Of a stretch of 37,382 bases of DNA, positions 1 to 29,925 are shown in pieces (positions within the stretch are counted from its first letter, which is position 1; each line of letters opens with the position of its first letter). Made by a program: the position numbers and the translations under genes. The notes beneath the pieces were generated by a model. It searched no databases, was not told where the DNA came from, and was given only the letters and a program-made list of their open reading frames with translations. The stretch is from Thiomicrorhabdus sp. (GTDB lineage: Bacteria > Pseudomonadota > Gammaproteobacteria > Thiomicrospirales > Thiomicrospiraceae): positions 1-37,382 of the forward strand of contig JAMOLY010000129.1 in the NCBI GenBank assembly GCA_027068835.1. Direction: 5' to 3'.

Positions 1-938
1 CCAAAGGCTTCGAGCAACAGCATGTGACCTCGCTGAATTCGACCATCCCTAATGGCTTCATCTAACGCTAAGGGGACGGATGCACTGGAGGTATTGGCGT
101 GCTTATGTACGGTAATCACCGCTTGCTCAGGTGACAGTTTTAATTTTTTAGCCGTACCGTTAATAATGCGTAAGTTGGCTTGATGTGGTACTAACCAATC
201 AATATCTTCTTTTTGCAACCCATTGGCTTCAAGCGTCTCTTTAGCAATGCGACTCAAGGTATTGATCGCCATTTTAAAGACTTCATTACCCTTCATGTTC
301 ATGCTGCGCTCTTCAATAGAGTCTGAAGCGGGCAATTTTGAAATGCCTGAAGGCACATGCAAAAGGTCTTCGTACTGCCCATCGGCATGAATGTGAGTGG
401 ACAAAATACCTTCTTGTTCTGAGGCTTCCAACAGCACAGCACCCGCACCATCACCAAATAATACACAGGTGTTACGATCTGTCCAGTTGATGATGCGCGA
501 CAAGGTTTCTGCCCCCACCACCAACACGCACTTTGCCATACCCGTTTTAATAAACTGATCTGCCACACTCAATGCATAGACAAATCCAGAACACACCGCT
601 TGAATATCAAATGCTGGACAACCATGAATGGCTAATCGCTGTTGCAGTAAACAGGCGGTACTCGGAAAAGTTTTATCAGGCGTGGTGGTCGCAACAATAA
701 TCAAATCAATGGCACTGGCCTCTAGCCCTGCCATTTCGAGTGCTTTTAAGGTAGCTTGCTCCGCTAAATCACAGGTGGTCTGACCCTCGGCGGCAATGTG
801 GCGCTGCTGAATACCCGTGCGCTCACGAATCCACTCATCACTGGTGTCTACCATTTTTTCAAGATCAGCATTGGTTAAGATTTTTTCAGGTAAATACCCA
901 CCTGTGCCAACAATACGGCTATAAACTTTTTGATTCAT
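1..938 (-). CDS. fabH: 3-oxoacyl-ACP synthase III (KAS III), 3' end truncated by the window edge
   Basis: Minus-strand reading from the cat at 936-938 gives [49 protein letters not shown]...; FabH-type motifs ([29 protein letters not shown]). Absent from the ORF track because no stop lies in the window. Confidence 0.93.
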
Positions 939-5888: not shown

Positions 5889-8327
5889 ATGAAAAGAATG
5901 CTCATTAATGCGACTCAAGTAGAAGAGACGCGAATTGCCCTTGTAGACGGGCAAGCCCTGTACGATTTAGATGTTGAAACCCCGCATCACCAAAAGAAAA
6001 AAGCCAATATATACAAAGGTCGAATCACTCGCGTAGAACCAAGTCTAGAAGCCGCTTTTGTAGATTACGGTTCCGAACGCCACGGTTTCCTTCCCTTTAA
6101 AGAAGTGGCTGAAGAGTACTTTCCCAAAAATAAATCTGACTCCGGCCGCCTTAGTATTCGTGACGTTTTAAAAGAAGGTCAAGAGATCATCGTTCAAGTT
6201 CAAAAAGAGGAACGAGGCAACAAAGGCGCAGCACTCACCACACAAATCACCCTTGCGGGGCCATACGTAGTGATGATGCCAAACAACCCAAAAGCGGGTG
6301 GCATATCAAGGCGTATTGAAGGCGATGACCGTTCAGGTATCCGCGATACCTTACGCGACCTAAATACACCAGATGGCATGGGATTGATTATCCGTACCGC
6401 TGGTGTTGGCAAAAACACCGAAGAGTTGCAATGGGGGGTCGATTACCTTGTACAGCTTTGGGAAGCCGTTCAAAAAGCCTCCAAAGAAAAAGCCGCTCCC
6501 TTTTTGATCCATCAAGAATCCGATATTGTAATCTTAGCAATACGCGACTATTTGCGCCAAGATATTGGTGAAATCATCATTGATAATATGGAAGTATTTC
6601 ACAAAGCGCGTGATTTTATTCAACACGTGATGCCTCAGCAAGTGTATAAAGTCAAACCATATCAAGATACGATTCCGCTGTTTACTCGCTTTCAGATTGA
6701 GTCTCAAATCGAATCTGCTTATCAACGCGAAGTAACCCTACCCTCTGGTGGTTCGATTGTGATTGATATTACCGAAGCCTTAACCGCCATCGACATCAAC
6801 TCAAGCAGAGCCACCAAAGGCAGCGACATTGAAGACACCGCTTTTAATACCAATATGGAAGCCGCTACAGAGATCGCTCGTCAACTGCGTTTACGCGATT
6901 TAGGTGGTCTTATTGTTATTGATTTTATCGACATGCACTCAAACAAACATCAACGTGATGTTGAAAATAGAATGCGTGATTCTGTAAAATCCGATCGTGC
7001 CCGTGTGCAAATCGGAAAAATTTCGCGCTTTGGTCTACTTGAAATGTCTCGTCAGCGCTTACGTCCTTCCATTGAAGAATCCACACAAATTGTCTGCCCT
7101 CGTTGTCATGGTGTAGGTGTTATTCGTGGTGTCGAGTCTTTAGGGCTCTCCATCCTTCGCTTACTTGAAGAAGAGAGCATGAAAGAGCAAACGCGCCGTG
7201 TAACAGTCCAGTTACCTGTAGACGTTGCCACCTTCTTACTCAATGAAAAACGTAATCAAATTATTAAAATTGAAGACCGTCACAGCCTGCATGTATTGAT
7301 TGTGCCTAATGAAAACTTAGCCACGCCACAATACGTTATAGAGCGCACGCGTAACGGAGACGAAACGCCCATTAATGCCAGCTATGAAATCAAAGAAATG
7401 ATGACCCCTGAGCTATCTCAACAAGAGGAAGCTCAAAATGAAAAACCACCAAAACCAAAAGAAGAGCCCGCAGTAAAAGCCATACAGCAAACGGCTCCCC
7501 CTGCCCCGACTCCTGCGGCACAAGAGAGTAAACCAGGTCTATTTTCGCGCATTTGGTCATCGCTGTTCAGTAAAGAGGAGGAAACGCAAAAAGAAACATC
7601 TAAAAAGCCACAGCGCCCTCATCAACGCAACCGCAACAGTAGCAACAGCCGTCGAGATGAAAACCGTCATCGTCGTACCCATCGCAACCGCCGTCAAATT
7701 TCGGACGATCAAGATAAAAAATCGACCTACCACGGAAAGTCGTCGGCCTCCGAGTCGTCCAAAAAACCGAATCGCCGCTCAAATAACGAGAATCACGCTC
7801 GTAAAGAGAGAGAGGTTAAAGAGCAATCGACAACAGATAGCAACGTAAACAATGACACCCGTAATGAGGCAAGTAGCACACCGCAGAATAAAAAACCTCG
7901 TTCTGGTGGAGGACAACGTCATCGTAGTCGTTACAACAGCCGCAACTACAACAGTCGCCGTCGTGCACCAGTGGGTGCAGAAGAGATGTCAATTGACTCC
8001 GTTACACCCAATACCATTACGGCTCCTGTGCAAGCAGTGGTTCCTGAAATCGTTATTGAAACACCAGTACAAGAAGCAATTCCTGACACCGTTGCTGAAA
8101 CACCAGTACAAGAAGCAATTCTTGACACCGTTGTTGAAACATCAGTACAAGAGGTAATTCCTGAAATCGTTGTTGAAACACCAGTACAAGAGGCAACTCC
8201 TGACACCGTTGTTGAAACACCAGTACAGGAGGTAACTCTTGAAGCCGTAACAGAAGTACCCGTACAAGAAACAACGCCAGAAATCATTATTGATACAATG
8301 GACGAAAAAAAGCCAAAAGAGTCTTAA
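5889..8327 (+). CDS. rne: Ribonuclease E
   Basis: [30 protein letters not shown]..., S1 domain, [26 protein letters not shown] Zn-link motif, disordered basic C-terminus. Confidence 0.97.
8043..8297 (+). repeat. 39-bp tandem repeat in rne (13-aa units like [13 protein letters not shown]), 6 units plus a partial
   Basis: Units at 8043, 8082, 8121, 8160, 8199, 8238 and partial 8277: [13 protein letters not shown] / [13 protein letters not shown] / [13 protein letters not shown] / [13 protein letters not shown] / [13 protein letters not shown] / [13 protein letters not shown] / PEIIIDT. Confidence 0.93.
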
Positions 8328-8930: not shown

Positions 8931-9614
8931 ATGCACCCTTCTAATTCAAATCAACCTCAAACCCAATTCACTTTTCATAACACATGGGTTCAATACGCTG
9001 ACAACAATATTGTTATTGCCAACAAGCCCAGCGGCTTGCTCTCGGTACCAGGGCGTGGGCCTGATAAACAAGAGTGTTTGGTCTCCCATCTAACCCCGCA
9101 CTTCCCGACAATTAAAATCGTACATCGATTGGACATGGACACTTCTGGCCTTATGGTACTAGCATTAAATGCCGACGCACACCGTAACCTAAGCCGCCAA
9201 TTTCAAGAGCGTGAAACCGCTAAAACGTATCATGCAGTCTGTGCAGGTATTCCTTTAAAAACTCAAGGAACCATTAAACTCCCCATGCGCTGTGATTGGG
9301 AAAAACGCCCCCTGCAAATGATTGATTTTAAGCAAGGAAAATCAGCCGAAACACACTGGAAAATTCTCAAACAGTACACCAATCACTTTCTCATTGAACT
9401 CACCCCCATTACAGGTCGCTCTCACCAACTGAGACTTCACATGAAATCACTTGGCCATCCTATTTTAGGCGATAACCTTTATGCCGATCCGATAACCCTC
9501 AATCAATCAAAACGCTTATTGCTCCACGCAACAACCCTCTCTTTTACCCATCCCGTGACCCAAAAAACTCTGCGCTTTCAGGCGCCTAATAATTTCCCCC
9601 CTCAAAATAAATAA
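8931..9614 (+). CDS. RluA-family pseudouridine synthase
   Basis: NKPSGLLSVPGRGPDKQECLVSHL, IVHRLDMDTSGLMVLAL, GRSHQLRLHMKSLGHPILGD; closest in pattern to RluA. Confidence 0.9.
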   Translation: MHPSNSNQPQTQFTFHNTWVQYADNNIVIANKPSGLLSVPGRGPDKQECLVSHLTPHFPTIKIVHRLDMDTSGLMVLALNADAHRNLSRQFQERETAKTYHAVCAGIPLKTQGTIKLPMRCDWEKRPLQMIDFKQGKSAETHWKILKQYTNHFLIELTPITGRSHQLRLHMKSLGHPILGDNLYADPITLNQSKRLLLHATTLSFTHPVTQKTLRFQAPNNFPPQNK

Positions 9615-9615
9615 A

Positions 9616-9631
9616 TGGCACATAAAATGCT
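9616..9631 (+). promoter_or_regulatory. Candidate sigma54 (-24/-12) promoter of the 9682-11802 module
   Basis: TGGCACATAAAATGCT versus consensus TGGCACG-N4-TTGCW; GG/GC spacing exact, one mismatch in the -12 box; 50 bp upstream of the ATG at 9682. Confidence 0.7.
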
Positions 9632-9681
9632 TTTCCATCCCTAATTAGATCTCTCTAAAACACGCGATAGGAACCTTAGCC

Positions 9682-10695
9682 ATGTCGGATATTAATATTG
9701 AAAAAGACGATCAAGCCACACAAGAAATGCTCGACATGATGGGCGAGCTTTCAGAAGAGATGGACAGCACGCTGCAATCAAAAGACAGCGTGCAAACTGA
9801 TGAGCTACTTAATGAGCTAGAGGGACTGCCCAGTGAACTGGAAGCAGAACCACCAGCAACCATTGAGGTCATAGAGCCAGACAAAGAGACTCCTCTTGAT
9901 GTAAATGATATTGACAGTCTCATGGCTGAAATTAATGAAGACACCGAAACCTCTATTGAAACGTCCCCCCCCTCCATTACTACAGCACCTAAAACCATCG
10001 AAAACACTGCATCAAAAGATGCTGACGAACACATGGAACCCCCAGTAATAGAAGACCTTGAAAATCCTTCCATTGTTGAAGACGAAGATAATTTAGAGGC
10101 AACAACGCCAGATGAAATAAGCGATCTAGAGGATCAAAGCGGCACCCAGAATACAGATAATATACAAGAAACCGACGATATTCCTGACACCGAAACAGAG
10201 ATGGATTCAATAACAAACGAGGACAATATTGCCCCCCCCTCAGAAGACATTGCCGATATAAGTGCCACAGATGACGAGTCCAGTGAACCACAAGAACAAA
10301 CAGAATCTACGGATCAAGCCGAACAACTGATCTCACAAACTCAACAAGCCGTTGATACCATGAAAGAAGCAATTCAAATCGATCAAGATATTCAAGAAAT
10401 CGCTTCCAGCGTTCACGGTAATGCCCAAGAAGCGATCCAAATAGCCATTTCAACCAGTGAACAAGCGCAGCAGTCGGCCGAACAAATTCAACGCGCGATT
10501 GAAGCCACCTTTGTGGCCTCTGAAAATGCCTTTAGTGCGGCAAAAAATGCAGGCTATCACATTAATTTAGATGACATCAACGCCGAAAAATCCACTTCGG
10601 AAATTATCGAACAACTGCAAGAAATTGAAACTAAAAATAAACAATTAAAAGAAGTAAATCAAAACTTAAAACAACGAATTTCAGAGTTAAAATAA
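9682..10695 (+). CDS. Uncharacterised acidic protein with a C-terminal Ala/Gln-rich coiled coil
   Basis: 337 aa; AGGAACC-type upstream region; acidic low-complexity N-terminal about 215 aa, then predicted coiled coil (QQAVDTMKEAIQ...KQLKEVNQNLKQRISELK). No recognised family. Confidence 0.85.
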   Translation: MSDINIEKDDQATQEMLDMMGELSEEMDSTLQSKDSVQTDELLNELEGLPSELEAEPPATIEVIEPDKETPLDVNDIDSLMAEINEDTETSIETSPPSITTAPKTIENTASKDADEHMEPPVIEDLENPSIVEDEDNLEATTPDEISDLEDQSGTQNTDNIQETDDIPDTETEMDSITNEDNIAPPSEDIADISATDDESSEPQEQTESTDQAEQLISQTQQAVDTMKEAIQIDQDIQEIASSVHGNAQEAIQIAISTSEQAQQSAEQIQRAIEATFVASENAFSAAKNAGYHINLDDINAEKSTSEIIEQLQEIETKNKQLKEVNQNLKQRISELK

Positions 10696-10722
10696 AATTA
10701 ACACAAAAGCATAGGTAGCCCC

Positions 10723-11802
10723 ATGAGCAATATCGTTGACGACTTACTGCATGATGTCGAAGAACTCGAAGCCAGTACACAAGATATGGATAGCAATGTT
10801 CAAGGCCTTGAGCAACAAAAGTCCACTCTAAACGATCGCGTTAAAGCAACGCACGATAAAACATTGCTCGAAACCGCTAAAATATCACAAGAATCGGCCA
10901 AACAAAGTCACTCTGCTGCGGCCGCATCCATTAAGCTATCCGAACAACTTAAAGCCAGAAATACCGAGCTTGAAGAGCTCAGCAACAATTGGCGACAAGC
11001 GGTACGAAATACGCTAAGAGAACAGCAAACCGCCAAAAAATATTTTGCCGTTATGCTCGGGGCAACCCTAGCCATTAGCATCATATCACTTAGCTCCATT
11101 GGCTATTTTTTCTACCTTCTCAACCAACAAAACACGCAACACAAAGGTGAAATGCTTGATATTATTCAAACCGAAAGCAAGTTACTCAGCAATAAGCTTA
11201 CGGTAAAAACAGACGAACTTGCCTCTCTTACCGAAGCCATGAGTGCCGATGTAAAACGCCTAAGCAATCAAAACATTCAAAGCAGTACCAATACCAGTAG
11301 TGCCAAAGATATAAAACAAGCAACCGTTGATTCCAGTGACACCCAAAAAATTACCAACACAGAACTAAGCAAACAGGCGGCGACTCACGCCTTAAACATT
11401 AAACAACTTAATGCTCAGCACAAAGAGCTTAAAGCCTTAATTCAAAAGCTGTTCGTTCAAAAACAGACCGTTAAAAATATTCCACAAACAAAACAATCAG
11501 CAACCGATCCTGCACAACTTAAAAAATTAAACGATCTAAGCTGGCTCATTCGTAAACAAGGCAAGGCGTTAAAAACCATTCAAAAAACGCTCTCAGGAAA
11601 GCTCGAACGCCCATCTGATAACCGAAAAATCCAAAAAACATTAACCGCTCTCAAAGCAGAACTCAACACGCTTAACCAACAGCAAAATGAGATTAAACAG
11701 CAACTCAACACACTGCAAGAAAGTGTTTCAATACACCTTAAAAAGCCAGTACAAAAACCTCCCTACAGCTATAAATCAACGACCGATTACAAACTAGATT
11801 AA
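10723..11802 (+). CDS. Uncharacterised coiled-coil protein with one central transmembrane helix
   Basis: 359 aa; N-terminal coiled coil, TM segment YFAVMLGATLAISIISLSSIGYFFYLL, long C-terminal coiled coil; 27-bp gap to the upstream gene suggests an operon. Confidence 0.85.
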   Translation: MSNIVDDLLHDVEELEASTQDMDSNVQGLEQQKSTLNDRVKATHDKTLLETAKISQESAKQSHSAAAASIKLSEQLKARNTELEELSNNWRQAVRNTLREQQTAKKYFAVMLGATLAISIISLSSIGYFFYLLNQQNTQHKGEMLDIIQTESKLLSNKLTVKTDELASLTEAMSADVKRLSNQNIQSSTNTSSAKDIKQATVDSSDTQKITNTELSKQAATHALNIKQLNAQHKELKALIQKLFVQKQTVKNIPQTKQSATDPAQLKKLNDLSWLIRKQGKALKTIQKTLSGKLERPSDNRKIQKTLTALKAELNTLNQQQNEIKQQLNTLQESVSIHLKKPVQKPPYSYKSTTDYKLD

Positions 11803-12689: not shown

Positions 12690-14723
12690 TTATTGAAAAC
12701 GCTCAACCACACCAGGCAAATCTAAAATTAAGGCGATGCTTCCATTACCCGTAATCGTTGCGCCAGCATATCCCGTCGCATTTTTTAGCATGACACCTAA
12801 TGGCTTAATGACCACCTCTTCCTGACCATTTACTTGATTAACCACAAGCCCAGCACGTTGATTTCCTACCGCAACCATAACCACTTTATCCCCCCTGTAA
12901 TTATCTTTGGGTTTGTCGGCCGCAAGCCATTCATTTAAAAAATACAGCGGAACACTTTCATCTCTTAAGCGCACCATCATTTGGCCATCAATTTTATTGG
13001 TTTTTTCAGGATTAAAATCAAAAATTTCTTGAACACTGGTTAAGGGAATCGCATAACTGTCTTCATTAAAGCCAACCATCAAAGTAGGAAGAATCGCGAG
13101 CGTAAGCGGTACTCGAATACTGATCTTCGAGCCTTCTCCCAATACTGAGTCAATATCAATACTGCCGTTAAGCTTGGTAATCATGGTTTTCACAACATCC
13201 ATTCCAACGCCACGACCAGATATATCACTCACCTGCTCTGCGGTTGAAAAACCTGCGGATAAAATTAATTCAAACGCAGACTTATCATCCATTTGACTGG
13301 CAGCTTGTTCATCCATCATGCCTTTTTCAACGGCTTTTTGGCGCAGAACGTCAGGATCCATTCCCTTACCATCATCGGTAATAGACAATAGAATATGATC
13401 CCCCTCTTGCTTGGCTGCCAGCACCACTGTACCCGTTTCAGGCTTACCTGCGGCCGCACGAATATCAGGCATTTCAACCCCATGATCCACGGAGTTTCGT
13501 ACTAAATGTACGAGAGGATCGGCAAGTGCTTCAACCAAATTTTTATCCAAATCGGTCTCTTCACCTTCTAGTTTTAACTCTATTTTTTTACCCAACTTTC
13601 GGGCTAAATCGCGTACCACTCGTGGAAAGCGTCCAAACACTTTTTTAACAGGCTGCATACGAGTTTTGAGTACAGAAGCCTGTAAATCGGTCGTAACATG
13701 ATCTAAATTAGCAACAGCATTGGCAAGGTCTTCTGGATCAGTATTTTTACCTTTTAAGGTCAGCAAACGATTACGAACCAACACCAACTCTCCCACCAAG
13801 TTCATAATGTCATCTAAACGTTTCGTATCCACTCGAACCGTCGATTCAGTGGTATTTTTAGTCGCGGGCTTTGCTTGATCTTTGGTACTTGGTTTTGATG
13901 CCGTCGCTTTAGGCGAAGGTTTCGGTTTTGCTTTAGGGGGGGGGGGAGAAATTTTAGGCGCAGAATTTGCCGCAAGCTTTGGTTCTGCTTTACTCGTATC
14001 TCGTTGATTCAACAACGCATCAAACTCTTCATCCGTCATATCGCCATCAGGGTCAACACCGTCTGGTAACGATAACGTTGCCGAATCACTGCTTGCAGAT
14101 CCACTGGTATCTCGTTGGTTTAACAACGCCTCAAATTCTTCATCCGTCATGTCCCCATCAGGGTCAACGCCTTCTGGTAACGATAACGTTGCTGAATCAC
14201 TGCTTGCAGATCCGCTAGTATCTCGTTGGTTTAGTAGCGCCTCAAATTCTTCATCCGTCATATCCCCATCAGGGTCAACACCATCCGCTAATTGCAATGC
14301 AGATTCAGCCGAATTTGATACTTCCGAAACAGGTTCCTCCACTTTCTTTCCCGTTAACGCATCCAAATCAATTAACAGTTGAGGGTCATTTTCGGGCAAC
14401 TCTCGTGCGCCATCATTCAATTTCTCCATGGCCTCACTGATGACATCAAACGCTCTTAAAATGACTTCTACAGCCACTTCATCGTATTCAACATCACCGT
14501 TACGAATTTTATCAAATACGTTTTCAGCACGATGACAAACTTCAATTAAAGGGGTAATCGCCAGAAATCCTGCCCCCCCTTTAATGGTATGAAACCCTCG
14601 GAACACCGCGTTTAATAAATCACTGTCTGTTGGCGAGTTCTCCAAATCAACCAGTTGATCATTTAATTGGTCTACTAGGTCAGAAGCTTCAACTAAAAAG
14701 TCCTGTAAAATCTCTTCATCCAC
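12690..14723 (-). CDS. cheA: Chemotaxis histidine kinase CheA
   Basis: Hpt P1 (AVFRGFHTIKGGAGFL), RVDTKRLDDIMNLVGELVLVRNRL, LVHLVRNSVDHGVE, GRGVGMDVVKTMI, C-terminal CheW-like domain. Confidence 0.97.
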   Translation of the reverse strand: MDEEILQDFLVEASDLVDQLNDQLVDLENSPTDSDLLNAVFRGFHTIKGGAGFLAITPLIEVCHRAENVFDKIRNGDVEYDEVAVEVILRAFDVISEAMEKLNDGARELPENDPQLLIDLDALTGKKVEEPVSEVSNSAESALQLADGVDPDGDMTDEEFEALLNQRDTSGSASSDSATLSLPEGVDPDGDMTDEEFEALLNQRDTSGSASSDSATLSLPDGVDPDGDMTDEEFDALLNQRDTSKAEPKLAANSAPKISPPPPKAKPKPSPKATASKPSTKDQAKPATKNTTESTVRVDTKRLDDIMNLVGELVLVRNRLLTLKGKNTDPEDLANAVANLDHVTTDLQASVLKTRMQPVKKVFGRFPRVVRDLARKLGKKIELKLEGEETDLDKNLVEALADPLVHLVRNSVDHGVEMPDIRAAAGKPETGTVVLAAKQEGDHILLSITDDGKGMDPDVLRQKAVEKGMMDEQAASQMDDKSAFELILSAGFSTAEQVSDISGRGVGMDVVKTMITKLNGSIDIDSVLGEGSKISIRVPLTLAILPTLMVGFNEDSYAIPLTSVQEIFDFNPEKTNKIDGQMMVRLRDESVPLYFLNEWLAADKPKDNYRGDKVVMVAVGNQRAGLVVNQVNGQEEVVIKPLGVMLKNATGYAGATITGNGSIALILDLPGVVERFQ
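13999..14289 (-). repeat. 111-bp tandem repeat (2 full units plus a partial) in the CheA linker
   Basis: Units start at 13999, 14110 and 14221 on the + strand; they encode GVDPDGDMTDEEF[ED]ALLNQRDTSGSASSDSATLSLP. Confidence 0.95.
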
Positions 14724-16832: not shown

Positions 16833-17711
16833 CTAATGCCCTGATTGAAATAAATTTTCAACAAAAAACTGTAAATAGCCTGTTGCCCCTTTTGGAACAG
16901 GCCATTTTTCAACCTGTTGAGCCATCGCCCTAAATGCTTGTGCCGACTCGCTGTGCGGCTTATAGACCGTAACTGGAATCTGTTTTTGTACGGCATCGCG
17001 TAAGTCGTGATCAAAAGGGATGGAACCCAAATAATCCAAACGCACATCTAAAAATTGTTCGCATACTTTAGCAAGTTTTTCATACAGTTGTCGACCATGT
17101 TTTGATGAACGACTTTGATTGGCCAATAATTTAAAACGTGTGAGTTGTTGTTCTCGGCTTAATACTTTAATTAAGGCATACGCATCGGTAATGGAAGCGG
17201 GTTCATCGGTGACCACCACCACCACTTCTTGCGCTGCTCGGCAAAAACTAATCACACTGTCGGCAATCCCTGCCGCCGTGTCTACAATTAACACATCCAA
17301 CTGGTCACTTAATTCTGAAAAGGCATTAATAATGCCTGCATTTTCTAAGGCGCTTAACTGAGCCATTCGACTTACACCCGATGCGGCAGGAATGATTCGT
17401 AACCCACCTGGCCCTTCTACAATAACCTCTTCAAGTGTTTTTTTGCCTTCAAGCACATGCAATAAATTATATTTAGTTTGCAGTCCTAACATAATATCCA
17501 CATTGGCCAGACCCATATCGGCATCCATCAATAAAACGCGGTGTCCCATTTTAGTTAATGAAACACCCAAGTTAACCGAAACATTGGTTTTACCCACGCC
17601 CCCTTTTCCACTGGCAACGGCAATCACTCTCACAGGGCTTTGTTGCTCTGTGCTGGCCATGGTTGGTTTTGACTGCATTGCTCGCAAGCCTGCTGCTTGA
17701 TCATTGAGCAT
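16833..17711 (-). CDS. flhG: MinD-like ATPase FlhG (FleN)
   Basis: VIAVASGKGGVGKTNVSVNLG deviant Walker A; downstream of flhF. Confidence 0.95.
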   Translation of the reverse strand: MLNDQAAGLRAMQSKPTMASTEQQSPVRVIAVASGKGGVGKTNVSVNLGVSLTKMGHRVLLMDADMGLANVDIMLGLQTKYNLLHVLEGKKTLEEVIVEGPGGLRIIPAASGVSRMAQLSALENAGIINAFSELSDQLDVLIVDTAAGIADSVISFCRAAQEVVVVVTDEPASITDAYALIKVLSREQQLTRFKLLANQSRSSKHGRQLYEKLAKVCEQFLDVRLDYLGSIPFDHDLRDAVQKQIPVTVYKPHSESAQAFRAMAQQVEKWPVPKGATGYLQFFVENLFQSGH

Positions 17712-18879
17712 TCGTTATCTCCTTTCCCATTCCCATTCGGAATGCTTGTTCATTTTGAGAGACATGTTTAGTTTGATGCCCCAATACAATCGCTCGGTCA
17801 ATCAACTCTCTGCTTCTCACGGCATCTAAATCCTCAGGTACACGTTGCCCACTGGACAACAGTGTAATTGGAAGCTGTGCTTCAATTAAAAGCGTTAAAA
17901 CATTACCTAACTGCAACGCTTCGTCTACCTTGGTTAATATACAACCTTTCAGCCCCATTTGACCAAACGAATCCACAATGTCCGTCATTACATTTAACTG
18001 AGTTGCGGCAGACAAAACCAAATAATTGCGCACATTACTTGCCCCTTCATGCCCAGAGGTTAGCTGTTGCGATAACTGTAAATCTCTTTGACTCATGCCA
18101 GCAGTGTCCACCAATATCATTTTTTTATGTTTTAATGAGGCGAGCAACGCATAAAGCTCCCCTTGTGTGGTTGCCACATGCACAGGAACGTGAATTAAAT
18201 CGGCAAAAGTTTTGAGTTGCGCCTGCGCCCCAATTTTATAACAATCTGTGGTGATTAACGCAAGCTCTTGGGGGGCATTTCGCATCACAAAACGGCTGGC
18301 TATTTTTGCAATGGTGGTTGTTTTTCCTACCCCTGTAGGCCCCACCAACGCAACAATGCCTCCTCGTTCAATAATATCGCGTTCTTCGACCAAAAGGTCA
18401 TGTTCCATATTCATTAAAATCTTCGACCAAGCCTGCGGGCTGTTTGCATCAACCGCTTCCACTAATTTTTGGCTCAAGTTCCAGCCTATTCCAAGTTGCA
18501 ATAATTTTTTAATCAACTCAATTTTATGCGGGTCATTTTGTGCAGTTTGCCCCCATGCCAATCCAGAGAGTTGATTTTCAAGCATTGCTTTAACCGCTTT
18601 AATCTCTGCAGCCATTCCTGCGAGTTCCTGACTATTTTCTCCCCCCCCTACAACAGAAGATGCCGAAACTTCTGGACTGTGATACGTACTGCCTGAACCC
18701 GTATGTTGACCCGTTTGCTCTTCTTGATATTGCAAAGCTTCAGGATCCAGTGCCGCCACAATTTCTACCCCCCCCTCCACATCTTTTGTGGACAATATGA
18801 CGGCATCATCCCCGTGCTCTTCTCGCACTAAATTCATCGCCAAGCGCATTGTAGGTGCAAAGTAGCGTTTTATTTTCAC
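17701..18879 (-). CDS. flhF: SRP-like GTPase FlhF
   Basis: MKIKRYFAPTMRLAMNLVREEHGDDAVILSTK, ALVGPTGVGKTTTIAKIA, ILVDTAGMSQRD, LTKVDEA. Confidence 0.97.
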   Translation of the reverse strand: MKIKRYFAPTMRLAMNLVREEHGDDAVILSTKDVEGGVEIVAALDPEALQYQEEQTGQHTGSGSTYHSPEVSASSVVGGGENSQELAGMAAEIKAVKAMLENQLSGLAWGQTAQNDPHKIELIKKLLQLGIGWNLSQKLVEAVDANSPQAWSKILMNMEHDLLVEERDIIERGGIVALVGPTGVGKTTTIAKIASRFVMRNAPQELALITTDCYKIGAQAQLKTFADLIHVPVHVATTQGELYALLASLKHKKMILVDTAGMSQRDLQLSQQLTSGHEGASNVRNYLVLSAATQLNVMTDIVDSFGQMGLKGCILTKVDEALQLGNVLTLLIEAQLPITLLSSGQRVPEDLDAVRSRELIDRAIVLGHQTKHVSQNEQAFRMGMGKEITNAQ

Positions 18880-28911: not shown

Positions 28912-29925
28912 TTACGCACTTTTAATGGCGCTCGACAGCTCGCTCTGAGCCGATTTTAACTCAGAAAGCGTTTCAACAATGCTACTTAACACATCGTTTA
29001 CTTTATTTGCTTGCGTTTGTGTCACATCCACTCGGCTCTGGCTTCCCTCCATCATTTGAACCGCATTGCGTGCATGCAATTGCAACTCTTCTATAATGGT
29101 TTGAATGTCTTTTGTAGCTTGCTGTGTTTTGCCCGCTAAAATTCGGACTTCATCAGCCACCACGGCAAACCCTCGCCCATGCTCACCCGCTCGTGCCGCC
29201 TCAATGGCTGCATTCAAGGCCAATAAATTCGTTTGTTCGGCAATGTCTCGTATCAAAACCAGCACCGCTCCAATATTACCACTGTCCGCTTCCAATCGTT
29301 TTAGGACACCGGAAGCATTTGCAACCTCCTCCGTTAAACCACCCACCTCTGAAATCACATCGCTGTTGACACTCATCACCTCAATAGAGTGCTGATTTGC
29401 TTGATTGACTAACCCTTCAAACTGAGAGGATAAGCCCACTAACTCGGAACTATCAAAACTTGACGCAGCCATAACAGGCGCTTGTTGCTGCTGAGCATAA
29501 CAAGCAGCCAAACTCTCATTAAGTTCCTCCATTTGCGTTTCAAAACTGGCCACTTTTGCTTCAACCTGTGAGGTTTCAATCATCTGCATCGTTATTTTAT
29601 TTGATGCCATCTCTAACAACTTATTAAGCGTAAACAACAACTTAGAATCAATGCTTTCGGACTTAAGTGTCACCGAAAAATCTTCGGACTTAATCACCGC
29701 TTCAACCTCTTCAATTAAGGCGCTTTGATCGCAAGTTGTCGATTTGCTGCACCAAAATAAATACATGAGTGCGCCAACCACCACCGCTGTAATTAAAAAG
29801 GTAATGATTACCACACCAAGAACAGGAACCCCGCCTGTTTCCGAACCCGCCATTGCCACCGTTGACCCTAAAGCCATACTCACGGCAAACAAAGCGCCTA
29901 CTGTTGTTTTTTTAAAAAAGGTCAT
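28912..29925 (-). CDS. Short methyl-accepting chemotaxis-like protein lacking a periplasmic sensor domain
   Basis: N-terminal signal/TM segments, then a cytoplasmic MCP hairpin tip [50 protein letters not shown]. Confidence 0.92.

Follow-up and report, generated by a model that had tools for sequence, protein, structure and literature searches.

FipA is a membrane partner of FlhF, found in polarly flagellated gammaproteobacteria that possess FlhF and FlhG; it is small, crosses the membrane once, and includes a coiled region, its DUF2802 domain is cytosolic, and it has almost no periplasmic part (PMC11620751). In HubP/FimV proteins, coiled coils flank a single membrane helix, one part of the protein is periplasmic, and the cytosolic region is large and acidic and contains repeats (PMC8789113). 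In Vibrio cholerae, HubP recruits the membrane-bound motility regulators MotW and MotV, described with Ig and TPR/MIT-type architectures, MotW having a large periplasmic part and a coiled coil (PMC8789113). Here, we describe a pair of adjacent genes, O1 and O2, which shares parts of these layouts and probably constitutes a membrane scaffold of the flagellum, made of two parts and not described before.

The pair lies in a window of 37,382 nucleotides of a Thiomicrorhabdus sp. genome (the whole stretch that was analysed, contig JAMOLY010000129.1), where 27 bp separate the two genes on the + strand (Table 1). The original prediction had described two tightly spaced ORFs, the first encoding an acidic soluble protein and the second a coiled-coil protein with a single transmembrane segment, and all of this was found as described. 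The net charge of O1 is −73 in the window and ranges from −35 to −145 among its relatives, whose size, from 203 to 522 aa, is set by the acidic linker. Indeed, both ends of O1 are conserved (the N-terminal stretch of 22 residues reads MSDINIEKDDQATQEMLDMM in the window), and the acidic arm is strongly variable in length, some linkers containing expanded simple repeats (VAELDE, SADIED, ESELES). In the AlphaFold2 model of O1, the C-terminal helices reach a pLDDT >90 and the middle is disordered; the C-terminus includes a coiled coil. The membrane helix of O2 lies near residue 110 in most sequences. Since its N-terminal flank is more basic than its C-terminal one in 37 of 38 sequences, with a tie in the other, an N-in/C-out topology is predicted. 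In the alignment of O2 relatives, the juxtamembrane segment reads KGEVLDIIQTE..LK.DEL, with a conservation equal to the strongest of any O2 part, and the tail is of the PYSYK type.

Table 1. Coordinates of the O1/O2 pair, of its parts and of related features (nucleotide positions in the window unless a locus is named; residues for protein parts).
Feature	Position	Strand	Remarks
rluA-type pseudouridine synthase gene	8931..9614	+	PF00849 E 4.5e-35; not thought to be a functional part of the pair
sigma54-type (-24/-12) promoter TGGCACATAAAATGCT	9616..9631	+	perfect consensus match, 50 bp before the O1 ATG
O1	9682..10695	+	337 aa, soluble, acidic
O1, N-terminal helix	residues 1-22		conserved
O1, acidic low-complexity linker			variable length
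O1, C-terminal helical domain	residues ~208-337		conserved
O2	10723..11802	+	359 aa, predicted bitopic membrane protein
O2, VDDLL motif	start of protein		N-terminal half
O2, coiled coil	residues ~45-105		predicted cytoplasmic
O2, membrane helix	residues ~108-126		N-terminal half
O2, juxtamembrane segment KGEMLDII..DEL	residues 141-170		conserved, predicted periplasmic
O2, linker			variable
O2, C-terminal coiled coil			
O2, PYSYK tail			conserved
FlhG gene	16833-17711		identified by reading the sequence
FlhF gene	17701-18879		identified by reading the sequence
Shortened pair, L165 (G076)	7326-8564		proteins of ~110 and ~297 aa
Shortened pair, L166 (G083)	7635-8881		proteins of ~110 and ~297 aa
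Remote pair, L194 (G119 contig C118)	2-1367	-	downstream of cca

That neither protein belongs to a recognisable family had been noted from the outset, and our searches agree. Pfam, NCBIfam, and PDB sequence searches with O1 and O2 gave nothing above chance coiled-coil similarity; Foldseek returned no match for the O1 model and only unrelated helical proteins, at E >0.4, for the O2 model; and no mention of the pair turned up in literature searches. An internal duplication linking the C-terminal domain of O1 to the N-terminal half of O2 was considered and rejected, the similarity being weak (hhalign probability of 43%). The order to which the pair belongs consists of sulfur-oxidising chemolithoautotrophs. 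Near-universal in its flagellated members and yet missing from every family library that we searched, the pair could be annotated as a new family.

We looked for both genes in 63 genomes, partly drafts, which represent one family and also the whole order examined (Thiomicrorhabdus, Thiomicrospira, Hydrogenovibrio, and relatives). O1 was found in 54 of them by single-sequence search and O2 in 60 by profile search. Divergent O2 genes are present in genus g2 and in G076 and G083, which the O1 search had missed, and divergent, unaligned ORFs stand directly upstream of O2 in G058, G059, G060, G076, and G083. The shortened pair of G076 and G083, two genomes in which flagella are present, keeps a YRNPQQF-type C-terminal tail and is possibly a minimal or decaying version. 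Among 369 genomes of the class outside the order, the profile search gave weak matches only. Those of G305, G414, G144, G037, G201, G299, and G284 were discarded as unrelated coiled-coil, ATP- or GTP-binding, or other proteins, and the sole convincing remote pair among the class matches examined was that of G119, from another gammaproteobacterial family. There, the O1-like gene carries the O1 C-terminal signature (hhalign probability of 97.7%) and overlaps by a few bases the O2-like gene, whose product starts with DELLDEMAELD and has one membrane helix; a sigma54-like sequence, TGGCAAGGTTGTTGCA, lies upstream, ~75 bp before the ATG. This genome has a motA/motB pair and no other flagellar gene in the roughly half of it that was read. 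The remote pair supports O1/O2 as a functional unit. Within the order, the distances between O1 C-terminal domains correlate with those between O2 N-terminal halves (r 0.79; partial r 0.70 given two neighbour genes), the corresponding partial r being 0.48 with the O2 C-terminal half and 0.27-0.51 for the controls. As the two genes are also adjacent in nearly all loci, the sequence comparison supports the idea that O1 and O2 would act together.

A sigma54-type site at 9616 had been predicted, as well as the same motif upstream of cheA, fliK, and fliE, and these sites were recovered. The window contains only two perfect matches to TGGCACN5WTGCW, one before O1 (9616) and the other upstream of cheA (14771), and near-perfect sites precede fliE (37354) and fliK (31466). 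The GG-N10-GC core expected for RpoN, within TGGCAY-N6-TGCT, is present at 9616-9631. When up to two mismatches are allowed, the pattern is found 49 times against 38 expected, and because this loose pattern is no commoner than in some shuffles, the promoter argument rests on conservation and not on a single match. TGGCA[CT]N6TGCT precedes O1 in 40 of the 40 main-set loci (the automatic count gave 39 in the standard interval, the ORF start of the last one, L087, having been called upstream of the site). In these loci, it precedes none of the 197 ORFs from the RluA, LMWP, RNase E, HAD, and O2 families and 7 of the 388 remaining ORFs. At the level of sequence, its conservation before O1 excludes chance as the origin of this putative promoter. 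In one locus (L089, from G029), ~300 bp separate the conserved site from O1; this stretch, which the closely similar locus of the window lacks, is perhaps an insertion. The genome of the window has 21 occurrences of the site pattern versus 8 of the reversed control. Besides the pair, sigma54-type sites are found there before fliD, fliE, flgB, cheA, and a gene with an MCP signalling domain, and also before non-motility genes (a nitrate-reductase-delta-type chaperone gene, a PBP-type gene, and DUF3305). No site of this pattern was seen before the pair in the five divergent genomes of genus g2 and G076/G083, where flagella are present. The putative sigma54 link of the pair is therefore not universal in the order.

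The rluA-type gene lies directly upstream of O1 in all mapped loci of the main set, usually preceded by the genes of an LMWP phosphatase and of RNase E; it is absent as a neighbour of the pair in genus g2. The 3' end of the RNase E gene of the window (7946-8300) encodes tandem repeats, in an acidic tail that is probably variable. Downstream, the neighbours of the pair differ from clade to clade, and flhA is far from it in most complete genomes. The placement of the pair next to the chemotaxis genes, which the original prediction had emphasized, holds locally. The flagellar cheW/cheA cluster follows the pair only in the window and in its close relative G029, and conserved linkage to che genes was not found across the 40 main-set loci, in which the rluA-type gene is the constant neighbour. 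The adjacency is thus incidental, an accident of the clade of the window. In several genomes of genus g5, the pair stands a few genes from a second cheA. The CheA gene of the window (12690-14723, - strand) contains a tandem in-frame repeat, LPEGVDPDGDMTDEEFEALLNQRDTSGSASSDSAT, in three copies between its Hpt and dimerisation domains, and a gene between fliK and motA (28912-29925, - strand) encodes a short MCP-like protein with a membrane helix and an MCP signalling domain (PF00015 E 2.4e-39).

The link to the flagellum comes from the losses. Only G007, G010, and G035 lack FlhA among the 63 genomes of the order. Flg rod-type genes are missing from them as well; FliG_C has no match in G035 and only weak double matches, untypical of FliG, in G007 and G010. 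As for CheA, G010 and G035 have none and G007 has the second, non-flagellar type alone. As for a flagellar component, O2 is present with flagellar genes (58 of the 60 genomes with FlhA) and lost or broken without them (none of the three intact). The flagellated genomes without detected O2 are G001 (79% complete) and G032 (97% complete), and a further one, G018, has a frameshifted O2 in an assembly that also splits neighbouring genes. In G035, the next gene after rluA is the one found behind O2 in G076 and G083, the pair having been cleanly removed; this genome corresponds to Thioalkalimicrobium cyclicum ALM1, a strain described as having non-motile cells (PMC4891895). O2 is frameshifted near residue 160 in G007 and after about residue 35 in G010; in both, the neighbouring genes are open and the lesion is a single frameshift in a draft assembly. 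An uninterrupted O2 is found in 57 of 60 flagellated genomes versus 0 of 3 aflagellate ones (Fisher p = 0.0005, kinship ignored), and the value becomes p = 0.14, again with kinship ignored, when any trace of O2 is counted. The O2 of G007 is closest to that of the flagellated T. arctica (88% over the N-terminal part), that of G010 is closer to others, and G035 belongs to another genus, the three loss events having occurred in different backgrounds. Genomes without flagella, where the original prediction had held that the pair should not occur, thus carry no intact copy (one deletion, two frameshifted O2 genes), and its suggestion of a membrane-anchored scaffold or accessory is supported for the flagellum, through this co-loss, and not for the chemosensory array specifically, the adjacency being unconserved and O2 being broken in G007, which keeps the second, non-flagellar CheA. 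It is likely that the pair is part of the flagellar system in one way or another.

We propose that O1 and O2 together make up a two-part scaffold in the inner membrane, dedicated to the flagellum, produced within a sigma54 (RpoN) flagellar regulon and with a HubP-like layout split over two genes, and we give this reading a probability of about 0.4. O2 would span the inner membrane once, N-in/C-out, probably as a coiled-coil oligomer, and its periplasmic coiled coil and PYSYK tail would dock on a structure of the envelope or of the flagellar base. On the cytoplasmic side, the C-terminal helical domain of O1 would bind the coiled coil of O2, and the long acidic arm of O1 could collect client proteins from the cytosol at the flagellated pole, for instance, FlhF/FlhG, switch, or Che proteins. 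Against this scaffold, it can be said that acidic disordered arms and coiled coils occur in many proteins, and that the likeness to HubP, with neither LysM nor TPR, is architectural only. Moreover, G001 and G032 have flagella and no detected O2, the proteins of G076/G083 are much shortened and these genomes, like genus g2, have flagella and no sigma54 site, and the lesions of G007 and G010 are single frameshifts in drafts.

The flagellar co-loss and the promoter also fit a motor or basal-body accessory, in which O2 would surround and brace the stators or the rod in the periplasm, with its periplasmic coiled coil and tail as the working part and O1 as a cytoplasmic foot, and which would tune torque or stator assembly, not the placement of the flagellum. 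The strong conservation of the periplasmic juxtamembrane segment and the retention of the PYSY tail argue for such a brace; however, Pfam scans found no MotB, FliL, T-ring, or disc-type domain, and a brace would not account for the long acidic arm that O1 has in the cytosol. We regard this accessory as rather unlikely. It is quite improbable that the pair is a sigma54-controlled envelope or pilus factor, dispensable for flagella, whose losses coincide with those of flagella by chance or through shared regulation. Sigma54-type sites do precede non-motility genes in the genome of the window, the loss events are only three, and G076/G083 retain the pair without the site, but these losses fall in different backgrounds (another genus for G035, different closest relatives for the O2 of G007 and G010) and O2 is kept in nearly all flagellated genomes.

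The start of O2 bears on the remaining readings. In the window, O2 starts with MSNIVDDLL, CheZ ends with AVDDLLGELGI, and FliM starts with MEDILSQDEVDALL (VDALL). Together with the adjacency of the pair to cheW, the promoter of the same type at cheA, and the second cheA close to the pair in several g5 genomes, this resemblance to the CheZ tail (VDDLLGEL) and to the FliM start would suit an accessory that anchors or positions the chemoreceptor array. Yet the che adjacency is not conserved, and G007, whose O2 is broken and which lacks the flagellar genes, keeps its second CheA. In addition, the O2 start is DDLL-like in 37 of 38 sequences, but the preceding residue is V, I, or M in only 14 of the 38, which makes a link of O2 to CheY through this motif a speculation. 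We regard an array accessory as very unlikely. The same motif enters a bolder form of the scaffold, about which we are doubtful, where the pair would be a split-HubP polar flagellar organiser replacing FipA, and where O1/O2 may carry CheZ/FliM-like DDLL motifs, touching CheY or competing with the switch.

How does the proposed scaffold compare with the known systems? O2 and O1 jointly have the features listed above for HubP/FimV, over two genes instead of one and with no detectable sequence relation. LysM, a feature of HubP/FimV, has no match in the O2 of the window nor among the families listed for the 38 aligned O2 sequences, and the TPR/FimV_C domain none in O1 or O2. MotW resembles O2 by its periplasmic part and coiled coil, and the Ig and TPR/MIT-type architectures by which MotW and MotV are described, not seen in O1/O2, set them apart (PMC8789113). 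As for FipA, it shares with O2 its small single-span form with a coiled region; O2 differs by its predicted N-in/C-out topology, its long periplasmic part, and a helix at about residue 110 instead of at the N-terminus. Pfam scans found no DUF2802 in the pair of the window or in the aligned O2 sequences, and DUF2802 (PF10975) was detected in 0 of the 63 genomes of the order, versus 104 of 229 genomes of the class as a positive control. It is attractive to think that the pair may replace FipA in this order. Having FlhF/FlhG-type genes and no detectable FipA, the order has in O1/O2 a concrete candidate for placing or tuning a polar flagellum.
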